A stretch of DNA of 64,000 nucleotides. Source: Paenibacillus sp. OK003. GTDB taxonomy: Bacteria > Bacillota > Bacilli > Paenibacillales > Paenibacillaceae. Under the pieces are notes generated by a model. The model saw only the letters and a list, made by a program, of their open reading frames with translations. It was not told the DNA's origin and made no database searches. A program made the position numbers and the translations under genes. Positions within the stretch are counted from its first letter, which is position 1. Every line of letters starts with the position of its first letter. Of the stretch, positions 752 through 64,000 are shown one piece after another. The DNA is taken from assembly GCF_900109515.1 (NCBI RefSeq), contig NZ_FOBD01000006.1, forward strand, positions 1 through 64,000, read 5' to 3'.

Positions 752-3700
752 ATGAGACGAAAATCAGCCCGATGGTTATCCGGTATTATAGCAGCAGGAG
801 TCTTGTTATCTTCTATGTTTTCCATGCCTGTTTATGCAGCGCCTGCCTATGGTGCTCTCCAGCAGAGTGAAAGCGCTAAGTCCATTCTGCAATCTCTAAC
901 GAAGGAAGAAAGACAAGCTCTAAACCAGCTTCAAGTGATGGATGGAGAAGTTATTGACGCCAAGGTGAATACTAAAAGTTCAGATTTGGTAAAAGTGATT
1001 GTCCAATTCAAAAGTGAACCCGCTGCGGTCGCCTTGAAACGGGCTGCTTTGAACAATGAGAAGATGTCCGAGCTTACAGCTACAAGCAGAGTGAAACAAA
1101 ATCACCAGCAGTTTAAACAGCATATTAAATCTTTGCAGCAGAAGAGAGGGCTATCTTATGATGCTGCCTCGATCCAAATCACTCAAGAGTATGAAACCGC
1201 ACTAAATGGTGTTGCTCTAACCATTCCCGGCGTAGCCGTAGAAGATTTGATGAAATCCGGGGTAGTGAAAAAAGTGTGGGTTGACCAGGAAGTGGCTCTT
1301 GATCTGCCAGAGACAGAAACATCAAATGAATTTGCATCTACATCCGGAATGCAACCTCGAATGGCTGATAGTGTACCTTATCTTGGCATCGACAAACTTC
1401 ATGAAGAGGGCATTACAGGGAAGGGAATCCAGGTAGGTGTACTGGATACGGGAATTGATTATAATCATCCGGATTTAACAGGTGCGTATAAAGGGTATCG
1501 TGCCCATGCGGGTGAGGATCCAAAACAAGTGGATCCGGCTACCGTTAAAGGTTGGGACTTTATCGATAATGATGCTGACCCGATGGAGACGACTTATGAA
1601 GATTGGGAAAATTCAGGCTATAAAGAACAAGGGGTATCAGCAGCAGAATATTATACTTCCCACGGCACACATGTATCGGGAACAATAGCTGGACAGGCCA
1701 AAAATGACGTAGGGTATGCTGTAAAAGGGGTTGCTCCAGACGCAGATTTGTATGTATACCGTGTACTGGGTCCTGGGGGTAGTGGTGAGATGAGTGGCAT
1801 TATTGCTGGGATTGAAAAAGCGATTAAAGATGGAATTGATGTTATCAATCTATCTTTAGGGGCTGCTACGAATGATCCGCTAGATCCTTCTTCAATTGCA
1901 CTGAACAATGCGATGCTGCAAGGTGTTGTGAGTATGGTTGCTGCAGGTAACGATGGGCCCAATGAAGGTACATTAGGTTCACCGGGAGCCAGCGCTTTGG
2001 CCATTACGATTGGTGCTTCCGATGTTCCGTTAACTATTCCTACGGCTACTGTGACTTTGGATGTGTATAGCAATCCAGGTGCGGGAGAGACAGAGGAAAC
2101 ACCTGTAATGGAAGAAGAAGCATCTTCTGAGGGTGAGGAAACATCTGTAGAGGAGCAAGAAGAAACACCTGTATTAGAAGAAGAGGCATCCGCAGAGGAA
2201 GAAGAAACTCCTGTAGTGGATGAAGAAGCTCCACCAACAGCAGAAGAGATACCAGCAACAGATGAAGAAGCACCATCAGCAGAAGATACACCTGCAGTAG
2301 AAGAAGAAACTCCCGCAGCAGAAGTGCCAACGGCAGCAGGAGAAGAAGAAACACCTTCTGAAACTTATACGGAGGAGTTACCTCTGTTTGGTAAAGACTT
2401 TACTGATGATCTGACCACCCTTGAAGGCAAAACCTACGAACTTGTTTATGCAGGTCTTGGTGATGTTTCTGATTTTGAAGGTATTGATGTGCAAGGCAAA
2501 GTGGTCCTTATCGCTCGGGGGGAAATTGCACTCGATTCCAAAATTGTCAATGCAAGAAAAGCAGGGGCAGCAGCCGCAATTATTTATAATAATGTTGAAG
2601 GAACAATCCCCAATTATTTGGGTGATATGAATGGATATATTCCTACATTCCAAATGATGAAAGAGCTTGGAGAAAAACTTAAGGGTACGAACGGCGTGGA
2701 AATTACGTTTGGCATAACCGGCGAAACCACTACGGAAGGAAACAAACTGGCTGATTTCAGTTCCCGAGGTCCGGCTGCCGTCAATGATGATATTAAACCA
2801 GATATCGTAGCCCCCGGCGTAGCTGTATTTTCGACTTACCCAGTATTTGTGAACGATCACACAGGTGCGAATGATGATATTGCCTATGCCAGAATTTCGG
2901 GTACTTCCATGGCAACACCGCATATGGCGGGTATTGCCGCACTTATGCTGCAGGCACATGGAGACTATTCGCCTTTTGATGTGAAGACAGCTCTTATGAA
3001 TACAGCTGTCGATCTGAATGGTGATTATTCCGTATATGAAGTAGGTGCAGGTCGTGTAGACCCTTATCGAGCAGTCCACACATCCGTATTTGCCAAAGTA
3101 CAGGATAAAACCATTCACTTCTCGAATGATGAATCCATTCTGATTGATGAAATTACAGGTTCAATCGTATTAGACAGTGCATACCTGGAAGAAAACGGCC
3201 AGGAGATCTTATCTGACAGCCGAGTCGTTAAAATAGAGAATAAAGGGGACCTTGCCAAAACGTATAACACTTCCATCAAGCTGTTAAACGATATGAATTT
3301 AAATGTAGATCTTCCAGAATCGATTACTGTAAGTGGCGGAAGTACGGAAGAGATGACTGTTTCAGTGGATATACCACAGGACACGCCAAGCGGTCGTTAT
3401 GAAGGATATGTATATCTGGATACGGAAAATGCGGCGGATCATATTCAGATCCCATTCTCCGTCCGTATTAGCGAAAAGGGCATTACTTCGGTGGAGATGA
3501 TTCCGCCATCCGTTACAAACGATACCCCATTCCATCAGTTCCTGAACCGGATGACACTGAGTGCCATTCTTTTGGGCAGTCCCATTGATTCTGTAGATGT
3601 ATTGCTGAAGGATCGCGAAACCGGCGAGGAAATCGGGTTTGTAGGTACCTTGAATTCGCAGTCCCTTCTACCGGGAGTGGAATATCTGATCCTGAATGTG

Positions 3701-6427
3701 TTTAGAGGTTATGCATTTCCAATTGAAAACGGGGAGATCTCCAACGTTGCACGATTTGTCCCTGAGGGCAGCTACACACTTGAATTCATCGGGACCGATT
3801 CGGACTCCAACCAGTATTCATACGAAAGATTGGTAGTTGTGGACAATACAGCCCCAGAGATTGATTTGGATATAGAGCCTGGCGTATACGAAATCAATGA
3901 TAGTATGCTGACGGAAAGGGAAGGTGGACAGGGCGTCTGGTATGATGGCACAGCTATCGATTCAACCATCCAAACCTTTGTTGATAATGGAATTACGGCT
4001 TATGATCAATCGTCCAATCGTGTCATCTTCTACGAGAATGGCAGTCCCTTCTATTCCGGTGATTTGCCTGTTTCCAAAGAAGGAAACATATCATTTGGTA
4101 TTACCAAAGAAGAATATGATAATGGTTACGAACTTCGACTCTTTGGAATGGATGTGGGTACAGCGGCAAATGCCGTCAAGGACCATCGTTATGGGTTTAT
4201 TTCCGAAGGAAAACCTTATGTGACCAGCAAATATGACAAAGACCAAGTCCGTAAAGGAGATACGATTACCCAGACTATTCAATTGAACAATGTGGAGAAG
4301 TTAAACGGTATTTCGTTTACCCTGGAATCGATGTATGACTATAAACAATTTAACCGGATTGAGCCAACGCCTGAGCTGCAGGCATTACTGGATGAGACAG
4401 GTGCTGAGGTGAAATTCAGTGATCCTGTAGTGGACCAAAGAGAACTCAGCTTTGAGGCATCCATCTCAGGTGGGTCCTTTGAAGGAATCACAGGGGATCT
4501 TGATTTGTTCCGTGTTGTCTTTGATGTACCCAAGGATGAATTCTATTTTAAGAAGAGCGACGTACCATTTCTTGAAGCGAAATACACGACGGTTGGCATG
4601 AAAGAGAACGAAGAGAAATTGGCTTTAGTCGCGTTTAACACAGACAGCTATGATGTAATCTCCAAATCTTCAAGAACATATGGTTTCGTACGTCCCGAAG
4701 CTTTTATGGTCAATGGAGAGTATCTGGATTTTGCAAATGACTATTCGGCAATGGGTATTGAGATTTATGCGGAGACGGCTTCCGGAGAAAAATATGAAGG
4801 CACCATGCAAAAATACGGTGAGTTCCTGATTGATGGGATTCCGGCAACAGGAGAAACGACGACCATCTACTCACGAGTACCAGGCCATTTACCTTCCAGA
4901 CTGGCAGTTGTTCTGAGCAAGACGATTAATGGCGAATATTATGGCATCAATCAACTGAATTCTTCTGACTTCACGTATGCGGGAGATATTAATGGGGATG
5001 GAGTCATCGATATCTATGACATGGAGCTTGTAACGAAACATTATCATACTTCAGATGAGATCGCTGATATCGACCAGGATGGTTATGTAGGAGACGCGGA
5101 AGTGAATTTTATTACAAATAACTTTGGAATGACCGCTAACTATTCTAGCAAGGAGCCTGTCTTGCAAATTGATGACAAAGACCTGGGTTACTTCCTCAAT
5201 AAAATTCAGGAAATGAATAGTGGTGGTTCTGGTAATAATGGTGGCGGTTCGGGAAATAGCGGTGGCGGCGGATCTTCTGCGACCCCTGCACCTGTCCCAA
5301 CACCTGCAACAACCACAGAACCAGATCCAAGCCAAAATCAGGTCATAACGGAAAAAGAGTTGAAAGCTGCGACAAATGGTACCGCAAACGTGGATATTAC
5401 CGTCGGTAAGAAGATTGAGCTGCCTGTCAATACGGGGGATTTGTTGGGTACGAATACACTCACATTATCTCAGCAAGGTGTGCTATCACTCACCATTCCA
5501 TCTAGCGTATTAAAAGAACTGCAAACAAAAGGAGGTCCTGGTGCTGCTGGTGGCAAGATCATTTTGGATGTGAAGAAACAAGATGTACAAGCACCAGAAA
5601 CGAAACAAGGTCTTACGTGGACACTTGCAGGGACGGCTTACGAATTCGAACTGTACCTTCAGGTTTCGAGTGAGAAGTTATCCTTGTCCACACTCCCGGA
5701 AGATATTACGCTGACACTCTTTTACAATAAGGATCTTAATGGTAATCTCATTGGATTGTACAATGAAAACTCAACTAATAATAACTGGGACTATGCCGGT
5801 GGAATTGTAGATCCACAGCAGGGTACTGTTACTTCCAAAGTGTCTCATTTCGGCTCGTTTGCACCATTTGTTTACGATAAATCGTTCGTAGACGTGGCTT
5901 CAACGCATTGGGCAAGTGTAGCAATCAAGTCTCTTTCGGCGAAACATGTGCTGACGGGTAAAACAGAGACTGCGTTTGATCCACAAGGTCAAACGACTCG
6001 TGCCGAATTCGCCGCCTTAATCGTGAGAACCCTTGGTTTAGAGGTGAAAGATACCGATACACCATTTGGTGATGTGAGTAAGGATGCCTGGTATGCAGAT
6101 AGCGTGGCTGCAGCATATCAAGCAGGTTTGGTTCAGGGAATAGCTAATGATAGGTTTGCTCCGACCCAAACCATTTCACGTGAAGAGATGGCAGTGCTCA
6201 TGATGAGAGCATACGAATATCAAACCCAATCAAACCATACCCAGTCGGTTAAAGCCGGTTATACGGATGAAGCAAACATTGCATCTTGGGCAAAAGAAGC
6301 TGTCGTTAAAGCTTCCGAGCTCGGTTTAATGAAAGGTTCTACTGGTGGGGCATTTAAACCGAAAAATAGTGCCTCACGTGCTGAAACAGCCCAAACGGTT
6401 CACAATGTACTGTCGTTGCTCAAATAA
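752..6427 (+). CDS. S-layer-anchored subtilisin-like (S8) serine protease with PA, cohesin-like, dockerin-like and SLH domains
   Basis: This is a secreted, cell-wall-attached subtilase of 1,891 residues. The ATG follows AGGAGG at 740-745. A signal peptide (about 1-29) and an I9-type propeptide come first. The catalytic domain carries Asp232 (DTGID), His304 (SHGTH), oxyanion Asn400 (AAGND) and Ser719 (GTSMATPHMAG). Between Asn400 and Ser719 sit a Glu/Pro/Thr-rich repeat (about 446-540) and a PA-type insert (about 545-665). Downstream are Fn3-like segments, a cohesin-like stretch (about 1155-1300), two dockerin-type calcium loops (DINGDGVIDIYD, DIDQDGYVGDAE; about 1408-1462), a Gly-rich linker (about 1489-1509) and three SLH repeats (about 1710-1890). 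The SLH repeats should bind pyruvylated wall polymer and keep the enzyme on the surface. The substrate is not visible. The gene stands alone between terminators. Confidence 0.93.
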   Translation: MRRKSARWLSGIIAAGVLLSSMFSMPVYAAPAYGALQQSESAKSILQSLTKEERQALNQLQVMDGEVIDAKVNTKSSDLVKVIVQFKSEPAAVALKRAALNNEKMSELTATSRVKQNHQQFKQHIKSLQQKRGLSYDAASIQITQEYETALNGVALTIPGVAVEDLMKSGVVKKVWVDQEVALDLPETETSNEFASTSGMQPRMADSVPYLGIDKLHEEGITGKGIQVGVLDTGIDYNHPDLTGAYKGYRAHAGEDPKQVDPATVKGWDFIDNDADPMETTYEDWENSGYKEQGVSAAEYYTSHGTHVSGTIAGQAKNDVGYAVKGVAPDADLYVYRVLGPGGSGEMSGIIAGIEKAIKDGIDVINLSLGAATNDPLDPSSIALNNAMLQGVVSMVAAGNDGPNEGTLGSPGASALAITIGASDVPLTIPTATVTLDVYSNPGAGETEETPVMEEEASSEGEETSVEEQEETPVLEEEASAEEEETPVVDEEAPPTAEEIPATDEEAPSAEDTPAVEEETPAAEVPTAAGEEETPSETYTEELPLFGKDFTDDLTTLEGKTYELVYAGLGDVSDFEGIDVQGKVVLIARGEIALDSKIVNARKAGAAAAIIYNNVEGTIPNYLGDMNGYIPTFQMMKELGEKLKGTNGVEITFGITGETTTEGNKLADFSSRGPAAVNDDIKPDIVAPGVAVFSTYPVFVNDHTGANDDIAYARISGTSMATPHMAGIAALMLQAHGDYSPFDVKTALMNTAVDLNGDYSVYEVGAGRVDPYRAVHTSVFAKVQDKTIHFSNDESILIDEITGSIVLDSAYLEENGQEILSDSRVVKIENKGDLAKTYNTSIKLLNDMNLNVDLPESITVSGGSTEEMTVSVDIPQDTPSGRYEGYVYLDTENAADHIQIPFSVRISEKGITSVEMIPPSVTNDTPFHQFLNRMTLSAILLGSPIDSVDVLLKDRETGEEIGFVGTLNSQSLLPGVEYLILNVFRGYAFPIENGEISNVARFVPEGSYTLEFIGTDSDSNQYSYERLVVVDNTAPEIDLDIEPGVYEINDSMLTEREGGQGVWYDGTAIDSTIQTFVDNGITAYDQSSNRVIFYENGSPFYSGDLPVSKEGNISFGITKEEYDNGYELRLFGMDVGTAANAVKDHRYGFISEGKPYVTSKYDKDQVRKGDTITQTIQLNNVEKLNGISFTLESMYDYKQFNRIEPTPELQALLDETGAEVKFSDPVVDQRELSFEASISGGSFEGITGDLDLFRVVFDVPKDEFYFKKSDVPFLEAKYTTVGMKENEEKLALVAFNTDSYDVISKSSRTYGFVRPEAFMVNGEYLDFANDYSAMGIEIYAETASGEKYEGTMQKYGEFLIDGIPATGETTTIYSRVPGHLPSRLAVVLSKTINGEYYGINQLNSSDFTYAGDINGDGVIDIYDMELVTKHYHTSDEIADIDQDGYVGDAEVNFITNNFGMTANYSSKEPVLQIDDKDLGYFLNKIQEMNSGGSGNNGGGSGNSGGGGSSATPAPVPTPATTTEPDPSQNQVITEKELKAATNGTANVDITVGKKIELPVNTGDLLGTNTLTLSQQGVLSLTIPSSVLKELQTKGGPGAAGGKIILDVKKQDVQAPETKQGLTWTLAGTAYEFELYLQVSSEKLSLSTLPEDITLTLFYNKDLNGNLIGLYNENSTNNNWDYAGGIVDPQQGTVTSKVSHFGSFAPFVYDKSFVDVASTHWASVAIKSLSAKHVLTGKTETAFDPQGQTTRAEFAALIVRTLGLEVKDTDTPFGDVSKDAWYADSVAAAYQAGLVQGIANDRFAPTQTISREEMAVLMMRAYEYQTQSNHTQSVKAGYTDEANIASWAKEAVVKASELGLMKGSTGGAFKPKNSASRAETAQTVHNVLSLLK

Positions 6428-28726: not shown

Positions 28727-28747
28727 TATTGTAAAATGAAAACAATA

Positions 28748-28896
28748 TTACACGATGACGAAGAGTGCAGAACCAATCTGAAGAAACGAAGTGCTCGCCT
28801 TTATCACCGGATTTCCCCCTTTATAAATGAAATGAAGAAATCTGGGGATAACAGCGATCGTAAGATGGTACTGCAATCGTAGTCACACTGTGTAAA
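28748..28896. repeat. Dispersed structured repeat, copy A
   Basis: This copy has inverted ends (TTACAC at 28748-28753, GTGTAA at 28890-28895) and an internal block TCTGGGGATAACAGCGATCG at 28841-28860 that recurs exactly at 59774-59793. Shared flanking pieces include CACGAT, a CGAAGNGNTCGCCT motif and GGATTT. It fills most of the gap between aroE and yhbY. It contains no coding frame. It could be a small-RNA gene or a non-autonomous repeat; strand is undecided. Confidence 0.7.
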
Positions 28897-46846: not shown

Positions 46847-47021
46847 TACATTCACCTCCTGTAAGGCATTTGCATGAATACAAACGTTTCACAACTTAAA
46901 ATATTCTAGCACGCTGGCATGCAAATTGCAACCAATTTTCCTATGATGTTCGATGGTGCTGCATAAAGCACACCATTTTCCCACACAATATGCTCAAATG
47001 CGGTAAGGGAGGCAGGGACAG

Positions 47022-53978: not shown

Positions 53979-54063
53979 AATTCATGAGATGTACAGTAAA
54001 GTTGTTATGTCTTGGAGACATTGGTCTATACTATAAATAGATGAGCGTACTCATCAAACTGAC

Positions 54064-54093
54064 TTGACAATGCTCACGTCATTTTGGTATTTT
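54064..54093 (+). promoter_or_regulatory. Sigma-A promoter of the hrcA heat-shock operon
   Basis: A perfect TTGACA (54064-54069) and TATTTT (54088-54093) are spaced by 18 bases. Initiation near 54100 places the CIRCE element right at the start of the transcript. Confidence 0.75.
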
Positions 54094-54104
54094 TGTATTA
54101 CCGC

Positions 54105-54131
54105 TTAGCACTCATCTAACCGGAGTGCTAA
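54105..54131. promoter_or_regulatory. CIRCE element, HrcA operator
   Basis: TTAGCACTC (54105-54113), nine bases, GAGTGCTAA (54123-54131) is a perfect match to the CIRCE consensus. HrcA with GroEL help binds it and represses the operon until heat shock. Confidence 0.97.
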
Positions 54132-54171
54132 CGACATGGGACAGTACAGTCAGAAGGAGGGAATACTCACC

Positions 54172-55203
54172 ATGTTAACAGAGCGTCAACGAATGATTCT
54201 GAACGCTATAGTGGATGACTATATCCGTTCAGCTGAGCCCGTAGGGTCCCGGAGCATTTCCAAAAGGGGAGATGTTGGATACAGTCCGGCGACGATCCGT
54301 AATGAAATGGCGGATCTTGAAGATATGGGCTTTCTGGAACAGCCGCATACATCGGCAGGACGCATACCTTCACACAAAGGCTATCGATATTATGTCGATC
54401 ATTTGGTTCCCTGGAATCAGGTGGAGCCGCATGAGCTGGACGATCTGAAGTCATTTTTTGCAGAAAAGCTGAACGTGATGGAACAAGTTATTCAGCATGC
54501 CTCAGTCATTTTGTCACATATGACGAATTATACTTCGATCCTGCTCGGACCGGAAGTTTTTCACACGTCACTTCGTCATTTTCAACTGCTTCCGCTTAAT
54601 GAAAACGAAGCTGTAGCCATCATCGTAACGAACACGGGTCAGGTGGAGAACAAGACAGTTCAGATTCCACCCGAAATTTCGGTAGCGGAGATGGAGAATG
54701 TAGTTCGTTTATTAAACAGCAAGCTGGTCGGCGTGCCGATTTACAAATTAAAGTCTCGTCTCTACACCGAGCTTGGGCAAGAGATGGAACGGCATATTAC
54801 ACGTTATGAGGAAGTCATGCAGGTGCTGAACAGCGCTTTTGACAACGAGCATGACAATCGTCTGTTCCTTAGTGGGGCCACCAATATGTTGACCCAGCCA
54901 GAGTTTAAAGATATTGAAAAGGTAAAAGATATTCTTGACCTGCTGGATGAGACACCAACACTCATGAAATTGATGATGCCCGTGCAGGGTGGATCTGGTA
55001 TTCAGGTGCGAATAGGCACCGAGAATGATCATGAAGCCTTCGCCAATTGCAGCCTGATAACGGCATCCTATTCATTGGATGGAGAGGCTTTGGGCTCCAT
55101 CGGAATTTTGGGACCTACGCGAATGGATTACGCACGTGTCATTCATATTTTAAATACATTATCCCGTGATTTGACGGCCATGCTAACGCATCGCTTCAAA
55201 TAA
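54172..55203 (+). CDS. hrcA: Heat-inducible transcription repressor HrcA
   Basis: The 343-residue repressor has an N-terminal winged helix (MLTERQRMILNAIVDDYI ... VGYSPATIRNEMADLEDMGFLEQPHTSAGRIPSHKGYR), a dimerisation domain and the C-terminal signature GSIGILGPTRMDYARVI. It represses its own operon through the CIRCE element 40 bases upstream. ATG 54172 matches the family start and follows AAGGAGG by 12 bases; the frame extends upstream to 54136. Confidence 0.96.
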   Translation: MLTERQRMILNAIVDDYIRSAEPVGSRSISKRGDVGYSPATIRNEMADLEDMGFLEQPHTSAGRIPSHKGYRYYVDHLVPWNQVEPHELDDLKSFFAEKLNVMEQVIQHASVILSHMTNYTSILLGPEVFHTSLRHFQLLPLNENEAVAIIVTNTGQVENKTVQIPPEISVAEMENVVRLLNSKLVGVPIYKLKSRLYTELGQEMERHITRYEEVMQVLNSAFDNEHDNRLFLSGATNMLTQPEFKDIEKVKDILDLLDETPTLMKLMMPVQGGSGIQVRIGTENDHEAFANCSLITASYSLDGEALGSIGILGPTRMDYARVIHILNTLSRDLTAMLTHRFK

Positions 55204-55242
55204 GGGAATGAACCATTTCATTCTTATAAGGAGGTGAACATC

Positions 55243-55818
55243 TTGAAAGAGGAGCAATCATTCGCAGCAGAAGAACAGGAACAGCAAACAACTACAGCAG
55301 CGGAGCAGGAGCCTGTCAACGAAGCCGGAGCTGCAGAAGCACAGGCAAAAGAGATGATAGATCAGGAGCAAGGTGAGATCGCACGCTTGAAGGCGGAAGC
55401 TGAGGAACATCAACAGCGTTTTGTCCGTGCGCAAGCTGATTTTGATAACTTCCGTCGTCGTACTCAAAAGGAAAAAGAAGAACTGGCGAAATACGCTTCG
55501 ATGAAGCTGATCACCGAACTGGTTCCAGTCATTGATAACTTCGAACGTGCAATGGCTACTGTACCGGAAGGTACGGAAGTCGAGTCTTTCTCCAAAGGCA
55601 TTGAAATGATTTTCCGTCAGCTGGAGACTGTGCTGAACAATGAAGGTCTGACGTCAATGGATACGGTAGGACAACCGTTCAACCCCGAATTCCACCAGGC
55701 AATTATGTCCGTGGAGAGCGACGAGTATGAAGAAGGTACCGTTGTCGAGGAAGTCCAAAAAGGTTATATGCTGAAGGATAAAGTACTTCGTCCGGCTATG
55801 GTTAAAGTTAGCTCATAA
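55243..55818 (+). CDS. grpE: Nucleotide exchange factor GrpE
   Basis: The 191-residue co-chaperone releases ADP from DnaK and acts as a thermosensor. A Glu/Gln-rich N-terminus leads into a long dimerising helix (IARLKAEAEEHQQRFVRAQADFDNFRRRTQKEK written here in parts: 50-70 and 70-85) and the beta-wing (GQPFNPEFHQAIM ... GYMLKDKVLRPAMVKVS). TTG 55243 is the likely start, eight bases after AAGGAGG (55228-55234); the GTG at 55234 overlaps that site. It lies between hrcA and dnaK in the CIRCE operon. Confidence 0.95.
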   Translation: MKEEQSFAAEEQEQQTTTAAEQEPVNEAGAAEAQAKEMIDQEQGEIARLKAEAEEHQQRFVRAQADFDNFRRRTQKEKEELAKYASMKLITELVPVIDNFERAMATVPEGTEVESFSKGIEMIFRQLETVLNNEGLTSMDTVGQPFNPEFHQAIMSVESDEYEEGTVVEEVQKGYMLKDKVLRPAMVKVSS

Positions 55819-55950
55819 TTTCGATTACAGAATGAATTGAGTTCACTCTTGATTGTACGATGCCACCGAAGTTTAATATAAAGGTTAGTACACACATAGA
55901 GCACGATTAGGAACAACAAATACAAATAAGGATCAAGCTGATCCATTTAA

Positions 55951-57819
<1,869 letters not shown>

Positions 57820-57865
57820 TTCGCGATTTCTTGTGAATTAATCATCGGTGACGTTCGGATCGAAG

Positions 57866-57906
57866 GGAAAGTCATAGCCGGGGCTCCCGTGCTTTGGCTT
57901 TCCTTT
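57866..57906 (+). promoter_or_regulatory. Intercistronic hairpin between dnaK and dnaJ
   Basis: GGGAAAGTCA near 57865 pairs, with one wobble, with TGGCTTTCC ending at 57902, followed by TTTTG. The stem with a short T tract could act as a partial terminator or an RNA-processing site that lowers dnaJ relative to dnaK. Confidence 0.5.
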
Positions 57907-57948
57907 TGTCACGATGTGCGATAAGGTGAATGATATGGGGGTGGAAGA

Positions 57949-59070
57949 GTGGCTGAAAAACGTGATTATTATGAGGTGCTTGGCGTCGGCAAAAATGCCA
58001 GCGACGAGGAAATCAAAAAGGCATACCGCAAGCTTGCCCGTCAGTATCACCCTGACGTAAACAAGGCTGCTGACGCGGAAGCCAAGTTTAAGGAAGTTAA
58101 AGAAGCTTATGATGTGGTCAGTGACGGCCAGAAGCGGGCGCAGTATGATCAATACGGTCATATTGATCCAAATCAGGGCGGATTCGGCGGCGGTGGCGAT
58201 TTTGGCGGCGGCGGCTTTGGCGACATCTTCGATATGTTCTTTGGCGGTGGCGGTGGACGACGTGATCCAAATGCTCCGCAACGGGGGAACGATCTGCAAT
58301 ACACCATGACGATTGAGTTCAAGGAAGCGGTATTTGGCAAGGAAACCGACATTACCATTCCTCGTACTGAAGGCTGTGATACTTGTCATGGCTCAGGTGC
58401 GAAACCGGGAACCAAACCAGAAACCTGTTCCGTCTGCCAAGGTAGCGGTCAACAGGAAGTGGTTCAAAATACACCGTTTGGCCGTATGGTCAACCGTCGT
58501 GCTTGTTCGAACTGTAATGGTTCTGGACAAATTATTAAGGAAAAATGTACAACGTGCAGCGGCAGCGGTAAAGTACGCAAACAACGCAAAATTCATGTTC
58601 GCATTCCAGCGGGTGTAGATGACGGCGCTCAATTGCGTATGACGGGTGAAGGTGAAGGTGGTCTGCGCGGAGGACCAGCAGGAGATCTGTATATTGTTAT
58701 CCGTGTGAAATCACATGATTTCTTCGAGCGTGAAGGCGATGATATCTATTGCGAAATTCCGCTTACCTTTGCTCAGGCGGCATTGGGAGATGAGATTGAA
58801 ATTCCAACGCTGTCCGAAAAAGTGAAGCTGAAAGTACCTGCCGGTACACAGACAGGAACGTACTTCCGTCTCAAAGGCAAAGGCGTACCACGCCTGCGCG
58901 GTATGGGGCAAGGGGATCAGCATGTGAAAGTCGTTGTCGTTACGCCTAGCAAGCTGAATGACGAGCAGAAAGATCTGCTTCGCCAAATCGCTGCGCTGGA
59001 TGGAGAACAAACTCATGAGCATGAGCAATCCTTCTTTGACCGGGTGAAACGGGCTTTCCGTGGAGACTGA
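57949..59070 (+). CDS. dnaJ: Co-chaperone DnaJ (Hsp40)
   Basis: The 373-residue Hsp40 stimulates DnaK ATPase and delivers substrates. It has the J domain with HPD (YHPDVNKA), a Gly/Phe-rich linker (about 73-105), four CxxCxGxG zinc motifs ([32 protein letters not shown]) and C-terminal substrate domains. GTG 57949 follows GGGGGTGG closely. It ends the hrcA operon before a strong terminator. Confidence 0.97.
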
Positions 59071-59087
59071 GTCGTAATCATTTATTT

Positions 59088-59130
59088 AAAAAGGACACCA
59101 CAGCGGTTTTTCCGCAGGGTGTCCTTTTTT
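59088..59130 (+). terminator. Terminator of the hrcA-grpE-dnaK-dnaJ operon
   Basis: AAGGACACC and GGTGTCCTT enclose an inner GCGG/CCGC stem, followed by TTTTT. Confidence 0.9.
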
Positions 59131-59218
59131 GCATAATATGGGCACGCTTGCGGAAAGATACCAGACATGAGCATTCAGTGGTTTACTGATGCCGAAACTA
59201 GGGAAGCAGGTGAACCGG

Positions 59219-59587
59219 ATGACCGAAAAAAATATTTTGGCTTATTTCCATAGCCCGGAGCAAGCGGAAGGGGCAGCCAAAAAACTGGAGGCATTGCGAG
59301 TGGAAGACCTGTCTATCAATCGATTCAGTCGTTATGCGGGTGTCGGGCCAAGCGGAGCATCCTATACACCAGGCGTATCCGGCAGTTTTTCTTCCTGGGT
59401 ACCAGGTGCCCTGGGCACAAATGCGAGCGCGGGGATCATGGCTGCAGCAGATCCTTCTGCCAGTGGTATGAGCGATGGCGGACAAGAGGGCCCAACAGGC
59501 AGAGATGTATTACTGACTGTCGTCGTTGACGAGGCGTTGCATCACCGCGCCCTTTCCATTATCGAACAAGCCGGCGGTATGATTTAG
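59219..59587 (+). CDS. Uncharacterised small protein, paralogue of the product of 60044-60436
   Basis: The 122-residue soluble protein has three parts: an N-terminal beta-alpha unit (ILAYFHSPEQAEGAAKKLEAL), a flexible Gly/Ser/Ala-rich centre (about 40-95) and a C-terminal beta-alpha unit (DVLLTVVVDEALHHRALSIIEQAGG). The two ends together suggest a ferredoxin-like or ACT-like fold. The protein encoded at 60044-60436 has the same plan and similar ends. I do not recognise a named family. ATG 59219 has a modest GCAGGTG upstream; the frame is open to 59189. Confidence 0.7.
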   Translation: MTEKNILAYFHSPEQAEGAAKKLEALRVEDLSINRFSRYAGVGPSGASYTPGVSGSFSSWVPGALGTNASAGIMAAADPSASGMSDGGQEGPTGRDVLLTVVVDEALHHRALSIIEQAGGMI

Positions 59588-59640
59588 TTTTTCAATTAAT
59601 TTCTATTCACTGAGCATCTATATAAGTTTCAACCTAAACA

Positions 59641-59827
59641 TTTACACGATAACGGAGAGGACAGAAAAAACTTGGAGAAGCGAAGCGTTCGCCTGAAAGC
59701 TTTCGTAAGAAAGCTACTTCGGAAGCATACGCTATCCCTGGATTTTCCCTTTTAAGGAAGGAAATCAAAAAAATCTGGGGATAACAGCGATCGGAAGGTT
59801 GTTCTGTCATCGGAGTGTCAGTGTAAA
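59641..59827. repeat. Dispersed structured repeat, copy B
   Basis: This is the second copy of the element at 28748-28896, with ends TTTACAC (59641-59647) and GTGTAAA (59821-59827) and the same 20-base core TCTGGGGATAACAGCGATCG at 59774-59793. Compared with copy A it has about 35 extra bases after the GTTCGCCT motif. These form a perfect hairpin, AGCTTTC-gtaa-GAAAGCT. Gain of a complete stem is typical of structured RNA. No coding frame is present. Confidence 0.7.
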
Positions 59828-59871
59828 TACTCTTTAGTTGAACTTATACAATTTGAAGGAGGAACATAACG

Positions 59872-60051
59872 ATGGCAGAACATGAACGTCCAGGCAAGAT
59901 TTTAACGAAAACGGAAAAGATGAAGCGAATGCAGTCCGCCAAAAATGAGGATGTGGAATTCAGTGCCGAAGCTGCGGATCATGAAGATATAGAGGCTTTG
60001 CGCCGCAGTGAAGCGGCCGATCGTCGTCAGGGTCGGGAGATTCATGACTGA
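59872..60051 (+). CDS. YfhD-like small acidic protein
   Basis: The 59-residue hydrophilic protein has the block NEDVEFSAEAADHEDIEALR followed by SEAADRRQ. From memory this matches the core of the YfhD family of small proteins in spore formers; function unknown. ATG 59872 has AAGGAGG (59856-59862) nine bases upstream. It ends eight bases inside the next gene, so the two are translationally coupled. Confidence 0.75.
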   Translation: MAEHERPGKILTKTEKMKRMQSAKNEDVEFSAEAADHEDIEALRRSEAADRRQGREIHD

Positions 60052-60436
60052 AGATCGCTCTGCAGTGATTATCGAAGCGGTGTTTACGAGCTGGTCCGAG
60101 GCTGAATCTGCACGCAGAGCTCTGGAATTGCTGCACCCGAACCAACTGAGTATTGAAAGTCTGAATGATCCATCGTCTTCAGTGGATCTGGAAGCGCCTG
60201 AGAGCACAGATAATTCGACTATGGCTGTGATTGGGGGATTCAGTGGTGAGCTGAATGTACTTTCCCTCATTAGCGATGAGACCGAGGTGTTGTCGGGTGG
60301 ACAAGTGTATGACGATCCGGATGCTGGCTCTGAAGGCAGGTCCAAGCAAGAAATCTTGCTGACCGTATCCGTATCCAGTGACTCTCTCCCGCAAGCTGCA
60401 GAGATGATTACGCAGAACGGTGGACGCTTTTGTTAA
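60044..60436 (+). CDS. Uncharacterised small protein, paralogue of the product of 59219-59587
   Basis: The 130-residue soluble, acidic protein has an N-terminal beta-alpha unit (AVIIEAVFTSWSEAESARRAL), a variable centre and a C-terminal unit (EILLTVSVSSDSLPQAAEMITQNGG). The ends match those of the protein at 59219-59587, so the two genes are probably an old duplication. ATG 60044 lies within the end of the YfhD-like gene and has GGGAG just upstream; a longer frame from 60008 would overlap that gene more. No function can be given. Confidence 0.7.
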   Translation: MTEDRSAVIIEAVFTSWSEAESARRALELLHPNQLSIESLNDPSSSVDLEAPESTDNSTMAVIGGFSGELNVLSLISDETEVLSGGQVYDDPDAGSEGRSKQEILLTVSVSSDSLPQAAEMITQNGGRFC

Positions 60437-60462
60437 CAAGTTAATCGAGTTTAGTCATAGTT

Positions 60463-60507
60463 AAAACAGGGTATTCGAGCAGTCAGGCTGCGGGTATCCT
60501 GTTTTTG
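60463..60507 (+). terminator. Terminator before prmA
   Basis: AACAGGGTA pairs with TATCCTGTT around an inner GCAG/CTGC stem, followed by TTTG. Confidence 0.8.
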
Positions 60508-60530
60508 TTGTTTCTTTTACTGCCGCGGTT

Positions 60531-60560
60531 TTGTACTCCTGCTCGCTTGTGTAGTACAAT
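60531..60560 (+). promoter_or_regulatory. Probable sigma-A promoter of prmA
   Basis: TTGTAC (60531-60536) and TACAAT (60555-60560) are spaced by 18 bases, between the terminator and the prmA ribosome binding site. Confidence 0.6.
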
Positions 60561-60598
60561 GGTTGGGATGTTTGAAAAATGAGGAGGAAAAACGAAGT

Positions 60599-61564
60599 AT
60601 GTTATGGCATGAACTAACAATACATACCACAGAAGAAGCTGTGGAGATGATTTCAAATTTTTTACATGAAGCGGGTGCTGGAGGGGTCTCCATTGAAGAG
60701 TCCGGTACTTTAAATAAAAAACGGGATACAACGTATGGCGAGTTGTACGAGTCTCCATTGAATGATATTCCTGAAGGTTTTGCGGTCATCAAAGGATATT
60801 TCTCTGAAGGTACGGACATGGATGCATTGCAATCTGAAGTAAGTCCTCGCATTGCGCAGCTTTCCGAATTCGATATCCAAACGGGTGAGGTTCGTTTTGA
60901 GACGCGAACTGTGGATGAAAATGACTGGGCGAACGCCTGGAAACAATATTTTAAGCCAGTACGTGTCTCGGAACGTCTAACCATTAAACCGACATGGGAA
61001 GAGTATACGTCGGAAAGCCCAAATGAGAAAATTATTGAGCTTGATCCAGGAATGGCGTTTGGTACAGGAACACATCCAACCACTTCGCTATGCCTGCGTA
61101 CACTGGAATCGGTCATTCAGGGTGGCGAGGAAGTTATTGACGTTGGTACAGGCTCTGGTATCTTGGCCATTGGAGCTGTCCATCTCGGTGCAAAACATGT
61201 GCTGGCACTGGACCTCGATCCGGTTGCGGTAGCAAGTGCTAAGGAAAATGTGGAACTGAATGGGCTGACACAACAAATTACGGTGAAAGAGAGTGATCTG
61301 CTGTCTGTTCTGGGTAGTCAGGACCCTGCCCTGGGCGTGAAGCTTCCGGTGAAAGTTATCGTTGCCAACATTTTGGCTGAGATTATTATGCTGTTTGTGG
61401 ATGATGTTTATCATGCGCTTGAGTCTGGCGGCGTTTATATTACTTCAGGCATTTGGAAAAATAAAGAGCAGCTCGTCCATGATGCGCTCGTTGCTTCCGG
61501 CTTCGAAATAAGTTCGGTTCATCGCGATGAGGACTGGATCGCGTTTGTGGCCAGAAAGAGGTAA
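60599..61564 (+). CDS. prmA: Ribosomal protein L11 methyltransferase
   Basis: The 321-residue enzyme trimethylates ribosomal protein L11. It has an N-terminal substrate-recognition domain (MLWHELTIHTTEEAVEMIS), the linker with DENDWANAWKQYF, DPGMAFGTGTHPTT, the SAM site VIDVGTGSGILAIGA and VANILAEII. ATG 60599 follows GAGGAGG by 11 bases; the frame is open to 60563. It starts the prmA-M50-rsmE-mtaB group. Confidence 0.96.
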   Translation: MLWHELTIHTTEEAVEMISNFLHEAGAGGVSIEESGTLNKKRDTTYGELYESPLNDIPEGFAVIKGYFSEGTDMDALQSEVSPRIAQLSEFDIQTGEVRFETRTVDENDWANAWKQYFKPVRVSERLTIKPTWEEYTSESPNEKIIELDPGMAFGTGTHPTTSLCLRTLESVIQGGEEVIDVGTGSGILAIGAVHLGAKHVLALDLDPVAVASAKENVELNGLTQQITVKESDLLSVLGSQDPALGVKLPVKVIVANILAEIIMLFVDDVYHALESGGVYITSGIWKNKEQLVHDALVASGFEISSVHRDEDWIAFVARKR

Positions 61565-61567
61565 CCG

Positions 61568-62245
61568 ATGGACTTAAACTCGTTCTTTCGTTATCCACTG
61601 GATCAACTGCCGTTTTTCCTGTTGACGATCCTGATTGCTTTTACGGTGCATGAATTTTCTCATGCGTATTTTGCCAACAAATTCGGTGATCCGACGGCCA
61701 AGCTGCTAGGTCGGGTTACCCTCAATCCGGTCGTACACTTTGACTTGTTTGGGGTGCTATTGCTCGTTATTGCTGGCTTCGGTTGGGCACGACCCGTTCC
61801 AGTTAATCGGGCGAACTTTGACAAACCAAGATTGATGGGTGTTATCGTCTCTGCAGCAGGGCCACTAAGCAATCTGCTGCTTGCGATTATCGGTACAATT
61901 ATTTACGCTTCATTGGTTGGTTCGGGAGCGCTGGGGAGTATAGAAAATGAGCGATTGCTCACAGCGATATCCATGTTTTTCTCTATTTTTAACCTGACGA
62001 ACTTTTTCTTGTTTCTGTTTAACCTTATACCGTTGCCACCCCTGGATGGTTATCGGATTCTTGAAGACGTATTGCCACCATCTATCAGTCGCAAGCTGCA
62101 AGGAGTGGAGCAATGGTCGATTTTTATCTTCCTGCTGATTCTGGTTATACCTCCGCTGCAAAATGTGACGATTCAACCGTTGTATGAGTTTGCACAAACG
62201 ATGTATGTGGATCTGGCAAAACTAATCATTGAATTATATCGATAA
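61568..62245 (+). CDS. Site-2-type M50 membrane metalloprotease
   Basis: The 225-residue polytopic membrane protein has the zinc-binding HEFSH at 28-32 inside a membrane segment and the third ligand in PPLDGYRILE. A PTAKLLGRVTLNP motif lies between, as in minimal rhomboid-sized M50 members. It lacks PDZ and CBS domains. Such proteases cut within membranes, but the client is unknown; the anti-sigma factor in this window is one guess with no direct support. It starts three bases after prmA and is absent from this place in B. subtilis. Confidence 0.88.
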   Translation: MDLNSFFRYPLDQLPFFLLTILIAFTVHEFSHAYFANKFGDPTAKLLGRVTLNPVVHFDLFGVLLLVIAGFGWARPVPVNRANFDKPRLMGVIVSAAGPLSNLLLAIIGTIIYASLVGSGALGSIENERLLTAISMFFSIFNLTNFFLFLFNLIPLPPLDGYRILEDVLPPSISRKLQGVEQWSIFIFLLILVIPPLQNVTIQPLYEFAQTMYVDLAKLIIELYR

Positions 62246-62381
62246 GCAACACGTACCTAGGGGTGAAATACTGGTCAGATAGACATAAAAGTTGTATGAT
62301 CATCTGTGGCGATTGGATTCACGCCTGCCATCAGGCGGGGTGAATTCCAGTCATAACAGGACAGAATGGGTGGATAGACGA

Positions 62382-63146
62382 ATGCAGCGATATTTTGTAT
62401 CTGCAGAACAGTTTAATGAACATTCCGTGGTCATCACGGGTGATGATGCGCGCCATATCGGTAAAGTGATGCGTGGTAAACCTGGAGATAAACTGATTGT
62501 CAGTGACGGAAACGCCAAAGAAGCTTTGGTGGAGATTGAAAGCATCGAAGCCCAGCAAGTAACAGCGAATATTGTGGAATCTCTCGAAATGGACCATGAA
62601 GCGCGTTTACGCGTAACCGTGGCTCAAAGCTTGCCAAAAGGCGACAAGATGGAGACAGTCATCCAAAGATGTACAGAGATCGGAGCGGTTTCCTTTGTTC
62701 CTTTCCTGTCTGAACGTACAATTGTGCAATATGATGCCAAGAAAGAAGGCAAACGGTTGGAGCGGTGGCGGAAAATCGCCAAGGAAGCCGCCGAACAAAG
62801 CCATCGGAACCGCATTCCATCCGTCGAGCAGCCACTTTCCTGGAAAGGGCTGCTATCTTCTTTTGAGGGCTACAGTCTGGTATGTTATTGTTATGAAAAG
62901 GAAAACGGCAAGCAGTTAAGAGACGCATTGAAGCCGTTTGTGGAGCAGCTTGCACCTGGTGCGAGCGCTGAAGTGTTGATCGTTGTTGGACCTGAGGGCG
63001 GATTCTCGGAGAGGGAAACGATTGAAGCCGATCAGGCGGGTGCTGTATCCGTTGGACTGGGCAAACGCATCTTGCGGGCCGAGACAGCTGGAATGGCGGC
63101 GCTAACTTGTGTCTTATATGAATCCGGAGAAATGGGGGGAATGTAA
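62382..63146 (+). CDS. rsmE: 16S rRNA m3U1498 methyltransferase
   Basis: The 254-residue SPOUT-class enzyme has an N-terminal PUA-like domain (RYFVSAEQFNEHSVVITGDDARHIGKVMR) and the knotted SAM-binding C-terminus with VVGPEGGFSERE and VGLGKRILRAETA. Internal motifs KGDKMETVIQRCTEIG and ERTIVQ fit RsmE. ATG 62382 has GGGTGGA seven bases upstream; the frame is open back to 62292. mtaB follows two bases later. Confidence 0.95.
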   Translation: MQRYFVSAEQFNEHSVVITGDDARHIGKVMRGKPGDKLIVSDGNAKEALVEIESIEAQQVTANIVESLEMDHEARLRVTVAQSLPKGDKMETVIQRCTEIGAVSFVPFLSERTIVQYDAKKEGKRLERWRKIAKEAAEQSHRNRIPSVEQPLSWKGLLSSFEGYSLVCYCYEKENGKQLRDALKPFVEQLAPGASAEVLIVVGPEGGFSERETIEADQAGAVSVGLGKRILRAETAGMAALTCVLYESGEMGGM

Positions 63147-63148
63147 TT

Positions 63149-64000
63149 ATGCCATCCGTGGCGTTTTACACCTTAGGCTGCAAAGTTAATTTTTATGATA
63201 CAGAGGCGATTTGGCAATTGTTCAAAAATGAAGGATACGATCAGGTAGACTTTGACGAACAGACAGCGGATGTATACTTGATTAATACTTGTACAGTAAC
63301 CAATACCGGCGACAAAAAGAGCCGCCAGATTATCCGTCGCGCCATTCGGCGCAACCCGGATGCGATTGTAGCCGTTACAGGCTGTTACGCGCAAACTTCA
63401 CCAGCAGAGATTCTGGACATCCCTGGCGTGGATCTTGTTATCGGTACACAGGATCGGGACAAAATCTTGCCATATGTCAATGAAATTCAGGAATCACGTC
63501 AGCCCGTCAACGCTGTGCGCAACATCATGAAAACGCGGGTATTTGAAGAGATGGACGTACCGGATTTTGCCGATCGTACCCGTGCATTTCTTAAAATCCA
63601 GGATGGCTGCAATAACTTCTGTACGTTCTGCATTATTCCGTGGTCGCGTGGACTTTCCCGTAGCCGGGAAGCAAACAGCATCATCCAACAGGCTCATCAA
63701 CTCGTACACGCCGGATACAAGGAAATTGTCCTGACAGGCATACATACCGGTGGATATGGGGATGACATGGAGAATTACGATCTGACGGATCTGCTATGGG
63801 ACTTGGATAAAGTGGAGGGCCTGGAGCGTATTCGAATCAGCTCAATCGAAGCCAGTCAGATTGATGATCGGATGCTGGATGTGATCAAACGTTCAGACAA
63901 ACTTGTGCGCCACTTCCACATTCCGCTGCAAGCGGGCGATGATACCGTATTGAAACGTATGCGCCGTAAATATACGACCGAAGAGTTTTACAATAAAATG
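63149..64000 (+). CDS. mtaB: tRNA t6A37 methylthiotransferase MtaB, cut by the window end
   Basis: The first 284 residues of a radical SAM enzyme that converts t6A37 to ms2t6A37 in tRNA are present; no stop is reached by 64000. The N-terminal MTTase domain holds three cluster cysteines (TLGCKVN, NTCTVT, TGCYAQ), and the radical SAM motif is DGCNNFCTFCIIPW. GGGGGGA lies just before ATG 63149. It is coupled to rsmE, as yqeU-yqeV are in B. subtilis. Confidence 0.96.
   Translation, partial: MPSVAFYTLGCKVNFYDTEAIWQLFKNEGYDQVDFDEQTADVYLINTCTVTNTGDKKSRQIIRRAIRRNPDAIVAVTGCYAQTSPAEILDIPGVDLVIGTQDRDKILPYVNEIQESRQPVNAVRNIMKTRVFEEMDVPDFADRTRAFLKIQDGCNNFCTFCIIPWSRGLSRSREANSIIQQAHQLVHAGYKEIVLTGIHTGGYGDDMENYDLTDLLWDLDKVEGLERIRISSIEASQIDDRMLDVIKRSDKLVRHFHIPLQAGDDTVLKRMRRKYTTEEFYNKM

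Follow-up and report, generated by a model that had tools for sequence, protein, structure and literature searches.

What is the functional unit in the small group of genes that separates dnaJ from prmA in this DNA, and what does it serve? The window, i.e. the whole 64-kb stretch that was analysed, is part of a Paenibacillus-like chromosome; the nearest named loci are those of P. taichungensis and P. xylanivorans. Behind dnaJ follow a terminator-like hairpin with a T run, P0001, a repeat in the gap, yfhD, P0002 and prmA. The hairpin was read from the sequence (59090..59131, plus strand; the pattern scanner lists its inner part only, on the minus strand). The parts of the locus itself are on the plus strand: a forespore sigma-G/sigma-F-like promoter site, GCATA-N18-AAAGATA, found by pattern match 59 nt 5' of the P0001 start (59131..59160); the open frame of P0001 (59219..59587, 122 aa), a conserved cassette member; a dispersed structured repeat with inverted outer arms (59618..59850, model core 59641-59826); yfhD (59872..60051, 59 aa); and the open frame of P0002 (60044..60436, 130 aa), a P0001 paralogue which in our samples is confined to one clade. 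A preliminary description had seen here a paralogous pair flanking a YfhD-like gene and a structured repeat, inserted between dnaJ and prmA as a small stress- or spore-associated system. As an observation this was real as a whole: its coordinates were right, all three frames are open, and the outer pair does flank yfhD and the repeat. The middle gene is a member of the YfhD family (PF14151, E 1.9e-9, 38 bits against a Pfam gathering cut-off of 27). Its end does overlap the second paralogue; P0002 starts 8 nt before the end of yfhD in all 26 loci that carry P0002.

The outer two proteins are true paralogues. In a BLASTP alignment 42 of 137 positions were identical (31%, E 3e-6), and profile-profile comparison of the two family alignments by hhalign gave a probability of 94% (E 1.1e-7, 108 columns). 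AlphaFold2 was run separately with 65 P0001 and 26 P0002 sequences. Confidence is medium to low for both models (mean pLDDT 64.6 and 59.9, respectively), with cores mostly at 70-90, and the two agree in the order of their elements. P0001 is predicted to consist of strand 3-10, helix 13-25, strand 30-35, strand 97-104 and helix 105-117, P0002 of strand 7-14, helix 17-30, strand 35-39, strand 104-111 and helix 112-124. The common plan is beta-alpha-beta, a disordered centre and beta-alpha. Thus, of the plan claimed earlier, beta-alpha on either side of a low-complexity centre, the sharing stood, while its first half has to be extended by a strand. Disorder of the centre is indeed predicted, yet 'low-complexity' undersells it because conserved stretches are found within this region in the alignments of each family. 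Both genes are under purifying selection, which is tighter on P0001 (dN/dS 0.02-0.06) than on P0002 (0.09-0.19) in the three of four comparisons with usable dS; the fourth, L129, gave saturated dS for either gene.

The outer proteins are unnamed in Pfam and NCBIfam as had been supposed: neither matched a profile there at E up to 5, or in PHROGs at E up to 0.1. Individual scans of 65 P0001 relatives at E up to 0.1 gave one hit to DUF2007 (0.074) and one to NCOA6_TRADD-N (0.041), both unconvincing. A sequence search of the PDB yielded no credible chain, the best (E 0.051) being an unrelated chimera, and nothing recognisable as a P0001-like protein was found in the literature, judged on titles and the starts of abstracts. 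The P0001 family has further members. In several other families of the order a different tandem paralogue lies directly 5' of P0001. A tree of 54 proteins grouped the P0001-type rows and P0002 with a support of 23/92; joining P0002 with the tandem paralogues of the other families was not rejected in the same tree (p-AU 0.131). In three Paenibacillus genomes a third family member adjoins a DJ-1/PfpI gene (L202:505-1005, L203:578-1024, L205:525-983). These frames encode 148-166 aa, and the one that was scanned had no Pfam match.

Which genes belong together was examined in the best 80 of 188 confirmed P0001 relatives in named genomes, each locus being limited to 5 kb or by contig ends. P0001 and YfhD occurred together in 78 of these 80 loci, with L187 and L190 as exceptions; YfhD followed P0001 in 75 and preceded it in three (L188, L195, L196). 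With dnaJ on the 5' side in 66/80 and prmA on the 3' side in 72/80, synteny is mostly that of the window. P0002 was present in 26 of the 80; its matches in L157, L165, L173 and L178 fall on P0001 itself and were left out of this count. In a sample of relatives P0001 was detected in 56/59 genomes and P0002 in 21/59, all of the window's genus. Because P0002 is confined to one genus in this sample whereas P0001 and YfhD occur together across much of the order, the paralogous pair does not hold as the unit. The conserved unit, an old cassette, is P0001 with YfhD. Nor is the cassette 'inserted': dnaJ and prmA are presumably adjacent in B. subtilis, and in the order of the window it is normal to find the cassette between them. 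Outside this order but within the class, tblastn with the window proteins detected no dnaJ, prmA or YfhD near the P0001 homologue in 20 of 20 loci, two of them shortened to about 4.4 kb. In L083, L084, L093, L195 and L196 the interval from dnaJ to yfhD contains an additional small frame, similar in all five, whose product ends in VFRN(Q/E)S.

The repeat does not belong to the cassette either, because 12 of the 26 members of the P0002 clade are without a full copy between P0001 and yfhD; 14 have one. It is a substantial finding of its own, and in this place a passenger. The close relatives L134 and L140 have a gap of 31 nt there and L145 a short remnant of the repeat. Presence and absence at the site need at least five changes on the starred branches of the tree, and different repeat subtypes are carried by two loci that bear the name P. 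taichungensis and are sisters in the tree. That the repeat is dispersed and structured, as described, is real. A 281-base query gave 41 BLAST matches in the window's own genome, and a covariance model built from 15 copies, with 150 of 2713 candidates scored, found at least 124 matches at E up to 0.001, at least 116 of them at 2.6e-16 or better; the fold z-score is -5.3. The second copy of the 64-kb window (28747..28893, plus strand, sense) is flanked by aroE and a YhbY-domain gene, which are also plus-strand genes. Among relatives the repeat was present in 28/39 genomes, viz. in 24/24 of the genus (1 to at least 68 each) and in 4/15 others (1 to 6). Rfam release 15 had no match at the repeat in window positions 54000-64000 or in 12 copy-bearing loci at E up to 1, and nothing recognisable turned up in the literature, judged on titles and abstract starts. 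This repeat family is large and uncatalogued. Near one copy, two tandem T-box leader matches, one just below the gathering score, are directly 3' of the repeat (L288:1684-2454).

Is the repeat a passive, MITE-like DNA element, or does it have a role as RNA? In a passive element orientation bias would derive from insertion preference or from counter-selection of antisense copies. Terminal inverted repeats, as in a MITE, are present in the arms CTATATAANTTGAACTAAA and its complement, and the loss, the remnant and the subtype exchange at the P0001-yfhD site are what such an element would leave. Dispersed intergenic repeats are also known from the Bacillus cereus group, bcr1-bcr18, often in UTRs or operon gaps, of which bcr1-bcr3 are described as MITE-like and some as having conserved RNA structure (PMC3446304). 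Going by that description the repeat is alike in general kind; it differs in its own core, in a strong strand bias and in the absence of an Rfam match. Inspection by eye revealed no evident target site duplication in 21 copies with both arms and no recognisable parent transposase at six places where stray arms occur away from full copies, which may count against a MITE.

Covariation through the interior also goes against a passive element. In 34 aligned copies (27 from the window's own genome, seven from other species at the P0001-yfhD site), from which the structure itself was predicted, 97.9% of the paired cells held standard pairs, compared with 32-49% for slid partners. Changes on both sides were seen in eight pairs, a number reached by 2 of 500 shuffles, and comprised 39 cells against a shuffled mean of 8.3. 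Further pair types were no more numerous than in shuffles of these copies (26 vs 24.4; 84/500). Wobble pairs on the plus strand exceeded their mirror (27 vs 7 cells, 16 vs 4 pairs; the copies are not independent), again contrary to a passive DNA element. The third argument is orientation. Genes around the copies were called by codon usage, because first, crude calls had missed yfhD; those earlier calls (up/down ++ 48, -+ 22, +- 14, -- 5, around 89 copies) were replaced. Context was obtained for 89 of 124 matches; of the 35 left out eight were weak. In 75/89 a gene on the same strand follows, and 38 of these 75 start at most 60 nt from the matched stretch. In tandem contexts 60 copies are oriented with transcription and six against it (p 2.7e-12); 15 contexts are divergent and eight convergent. 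Because of the covariation, the strand bias and the loss and subtype exchange, the repeat can be considered mobile or converting, RNA-structured and transcript-oriented, as judged from comparison of its copies. We rate the chance that it is a passive element without an RNA role as only slightly below even. A mobile regulatory RNA of about 150-190 nt is a more doubtful proposition: it would be kept on the mRNA sense strand at more than 100 sites, often just ahead of the next ribosome-binding site, it would place unrelated genes, including the putative forespore operon described here, under common control, and its subtypes would replace one another at fixed sites through conversion or re-insertion. 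The at least 124 matches in one genome are natural replicates with which to ask if a mobile RNA structure can serve as a portable leader.

How is the cassette expressed? Two patterns were used for forespore promoters. The strict form, GNATA-N17-18-CANNNTA, follows what we take to be the sigma-G consensus. The core form, GNATA-N18-[CA]ANN[AC]TA, was set after inspecting these sequences. In the best 80 of 188 loci the core form was present 5' of P0001 in 64, a count partly fitted because of this choice, and the strict form in 41; dinucleotide shuffles predict 0.45 for either. All 26 loci of the P0002 clade have the core form; the -10 box is AAAGATA, as in the window, in 22, CAGACTA in two and AAGGATA in two. 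Sigma-G/sigma-F consensus-type promoters are thus found family-wide, and the copy in the window (59131..59160) conforms to the core form and fails the strict form. Other genes served as controls. The core form was absent in 40 grpE, 61 dnaK, 61 dnaJ, 51 yfhD, 26 P0002, 72 prmA, 63 M50 and 69 rsmE regions, and the strict form occurred once (1/72 prmA) and in none of the other control sets. SASP genes are targets of sigma-G; of 30, the loci kept from a larger number of matches, 15 had the strict form with a spacer of 17 or 18 nt. Only two had the core form, spacers of 17 nt being found in these genes, and this counts against the core pattern.

Over its two strands together the 64-kb window has two instances of the core form, at 59131 and at 46961, 61 nt 5' of gpr, and five of the strict form, one being the gpr site. 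The gpr site (46961-46990) precedes the gene of the germination protease (PF03418), followed by a SpoIIP gene. In the sample of the order, the site was directly 5' of P0001 in only 1/20 loci, often because another cassette gene, in many cases yfhD, occupies that place. Where yfhD comes first, a loose form was detected within 600 nt 5' of yfhD in 9/12 regions; this form occurs 16 times on the two strands of the 64-kb window. All 18 yfhD regions tested together gave 11 loose and three strict forms. In other orders of the class the loose form was within 200 nt 5' of the P0001 homologue in 9/20 loci. Promoters of sigma-F and sigma-G are reported to resemble each other closely, a G upstream of the -10 box being the mark of sigma-F (PMC3789822); for this reason the two factors are left undivided here. 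The distribution of the site suggests that expression of the cassette depends on forespore sigma-G or sigma-F.

A spore association is also indicated by the distribution of P0001. In an even draw of 299 genomes from the class its profile hit 131, in 61 of 118 genera; SpoIVA was present in 210 of the same genomes. Every one of the 131 genomes with P0001 also has SpoIVA, and P0001 is missing from all 89 that are SpoIVA-negative (Fisher 3e-29, kinship ignored). Even in the window's own family, two genomes without SpoIVA (G103, G320) are also without P0001. P0001 is an accessory and not a core sporulation gene, because 79 of the 210 SpoIVA-positive genomes do not have it. YfhD was present in 27 genomes of a class sample of 121, in 14 of them together with P0001, and it is listed with the sporulation genes specific to Bacilli (PMC3533761). 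Of the earlier alternative, stress or spore, the spore half is therefore borne out by the promoter-like site and the co-occurrence with SpoIVA; for stress or heat shock no support was found, as the hairpin with its T run parts the cassette from dnaJ and a comparison with YflT-type proteins failed. From its sequence context the cassette looks spore-associated rather than heat-shock-associated. Because P0001 occurs in 61 of 118 sampled genera and in this sample only with SpoIVA, it can be put to a direct test as a candidate spore protein, putatively outside the usual B. subtilis gene set.

These data are best explained by a small forespore operon of spore-forming Bacilli. Transcription would start immediately behind the dnaJ terminator, at the sigma-G/sigma-F type promoter, and would proceed as a single transcript through P0001, yfhD and, in this clade, P0002, with the yfhD/P0002 overlap coupling the translation of these two. 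P0001 would be small and ferredoxin-like, and the conserved flexible loop that joins its strands 2 and 3 would sit where PII proteins have their long loop. Most likely it would oligomerise and bind a partner in the spore by means of the loop. P0002, the faster-evolving paralogue, would probably work with P0001, perhaps in a mixed oligomer. The repeat would be outside the system, one of more than 100 copies, mobile or converting, which as an RNA structure would be contained in the mRNA ahead of yfhD. For this explanation as a whole, i.e. operon, roles of P0001 and P0002 and repeat as an outsider jointly, we estimate a probability of about 0.75.

The place of the loop raises the question whether P0001 and P0002 belong to the PII/CutA (GlnB-like) superfamily and are ligand-binding trimeric sensors in the spore. 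For P0001 the top Foldseek rows were mostly PII proteins, which were also frequent among the P0002 rows, and CutA1, LarC2, PII and PstA accounted for most of the VIA rows. P0001 is like PII, CutA1 and PstA in the order of strands and helices and in having a loop between strands 2 and 3. However, the scores are weak. The best Foldseek E-value was 0.039 for P0001; for P0002 it was 0.036 and belonged to a V-ATPase subunit, PII proteins following only from 0.18. Z reached 8.3 over about 70 residues, and the tool gives 7 to 8 as typical without kinship. Neither protein has a credible sequence match to a PDB chain, and the conserved loop of P0001 is its own. On these models the likeness is weak and not enough for membership, and we consider this assignment unlikely.

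The forespore operon also has to be weighed against a module for general stress or heat shock that would be expressed together with the dnaK operon and in which P0001 and P0002 would be YflT/GSP17M-like. YflT and general stress 17M-like proteins are small and start with beta-alpha-beta. Their likeness to the plan of P0001 and P0002, the position behind dnaJ and the DJ-1/PfpI gene beside the third paralogue would fit, yet such a module is improbable, as kinship with YflT was rejected (no PF11181 match for either protein at E up to 5; hhalign probabilities of 7.3% and 0.6% with two YflT-type alignments), a terminator-like hairpin is 3' of dnaJ, and P0001 tracks SpoIVA. PF11181 members do exist in the same genome; the search led to three other places. 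The one gene of the locus with a known family is yfhD, which in this setting forms a cassette with P0001.

Two of the records compared call for a remark. L172, filed as Neobacillus mesonae MER 107, has dnaJ, P0001, yfhD and prmA in the Paenibacillus order with a dnaJ that is 88% identical; the name of this record may be wrong. In L135 the dnaJ of Paenibacillus sp. OVF10 (3637-4757) appeared as two overlapping pieces in the protein comparison, possibly due to a frameshift in the record.
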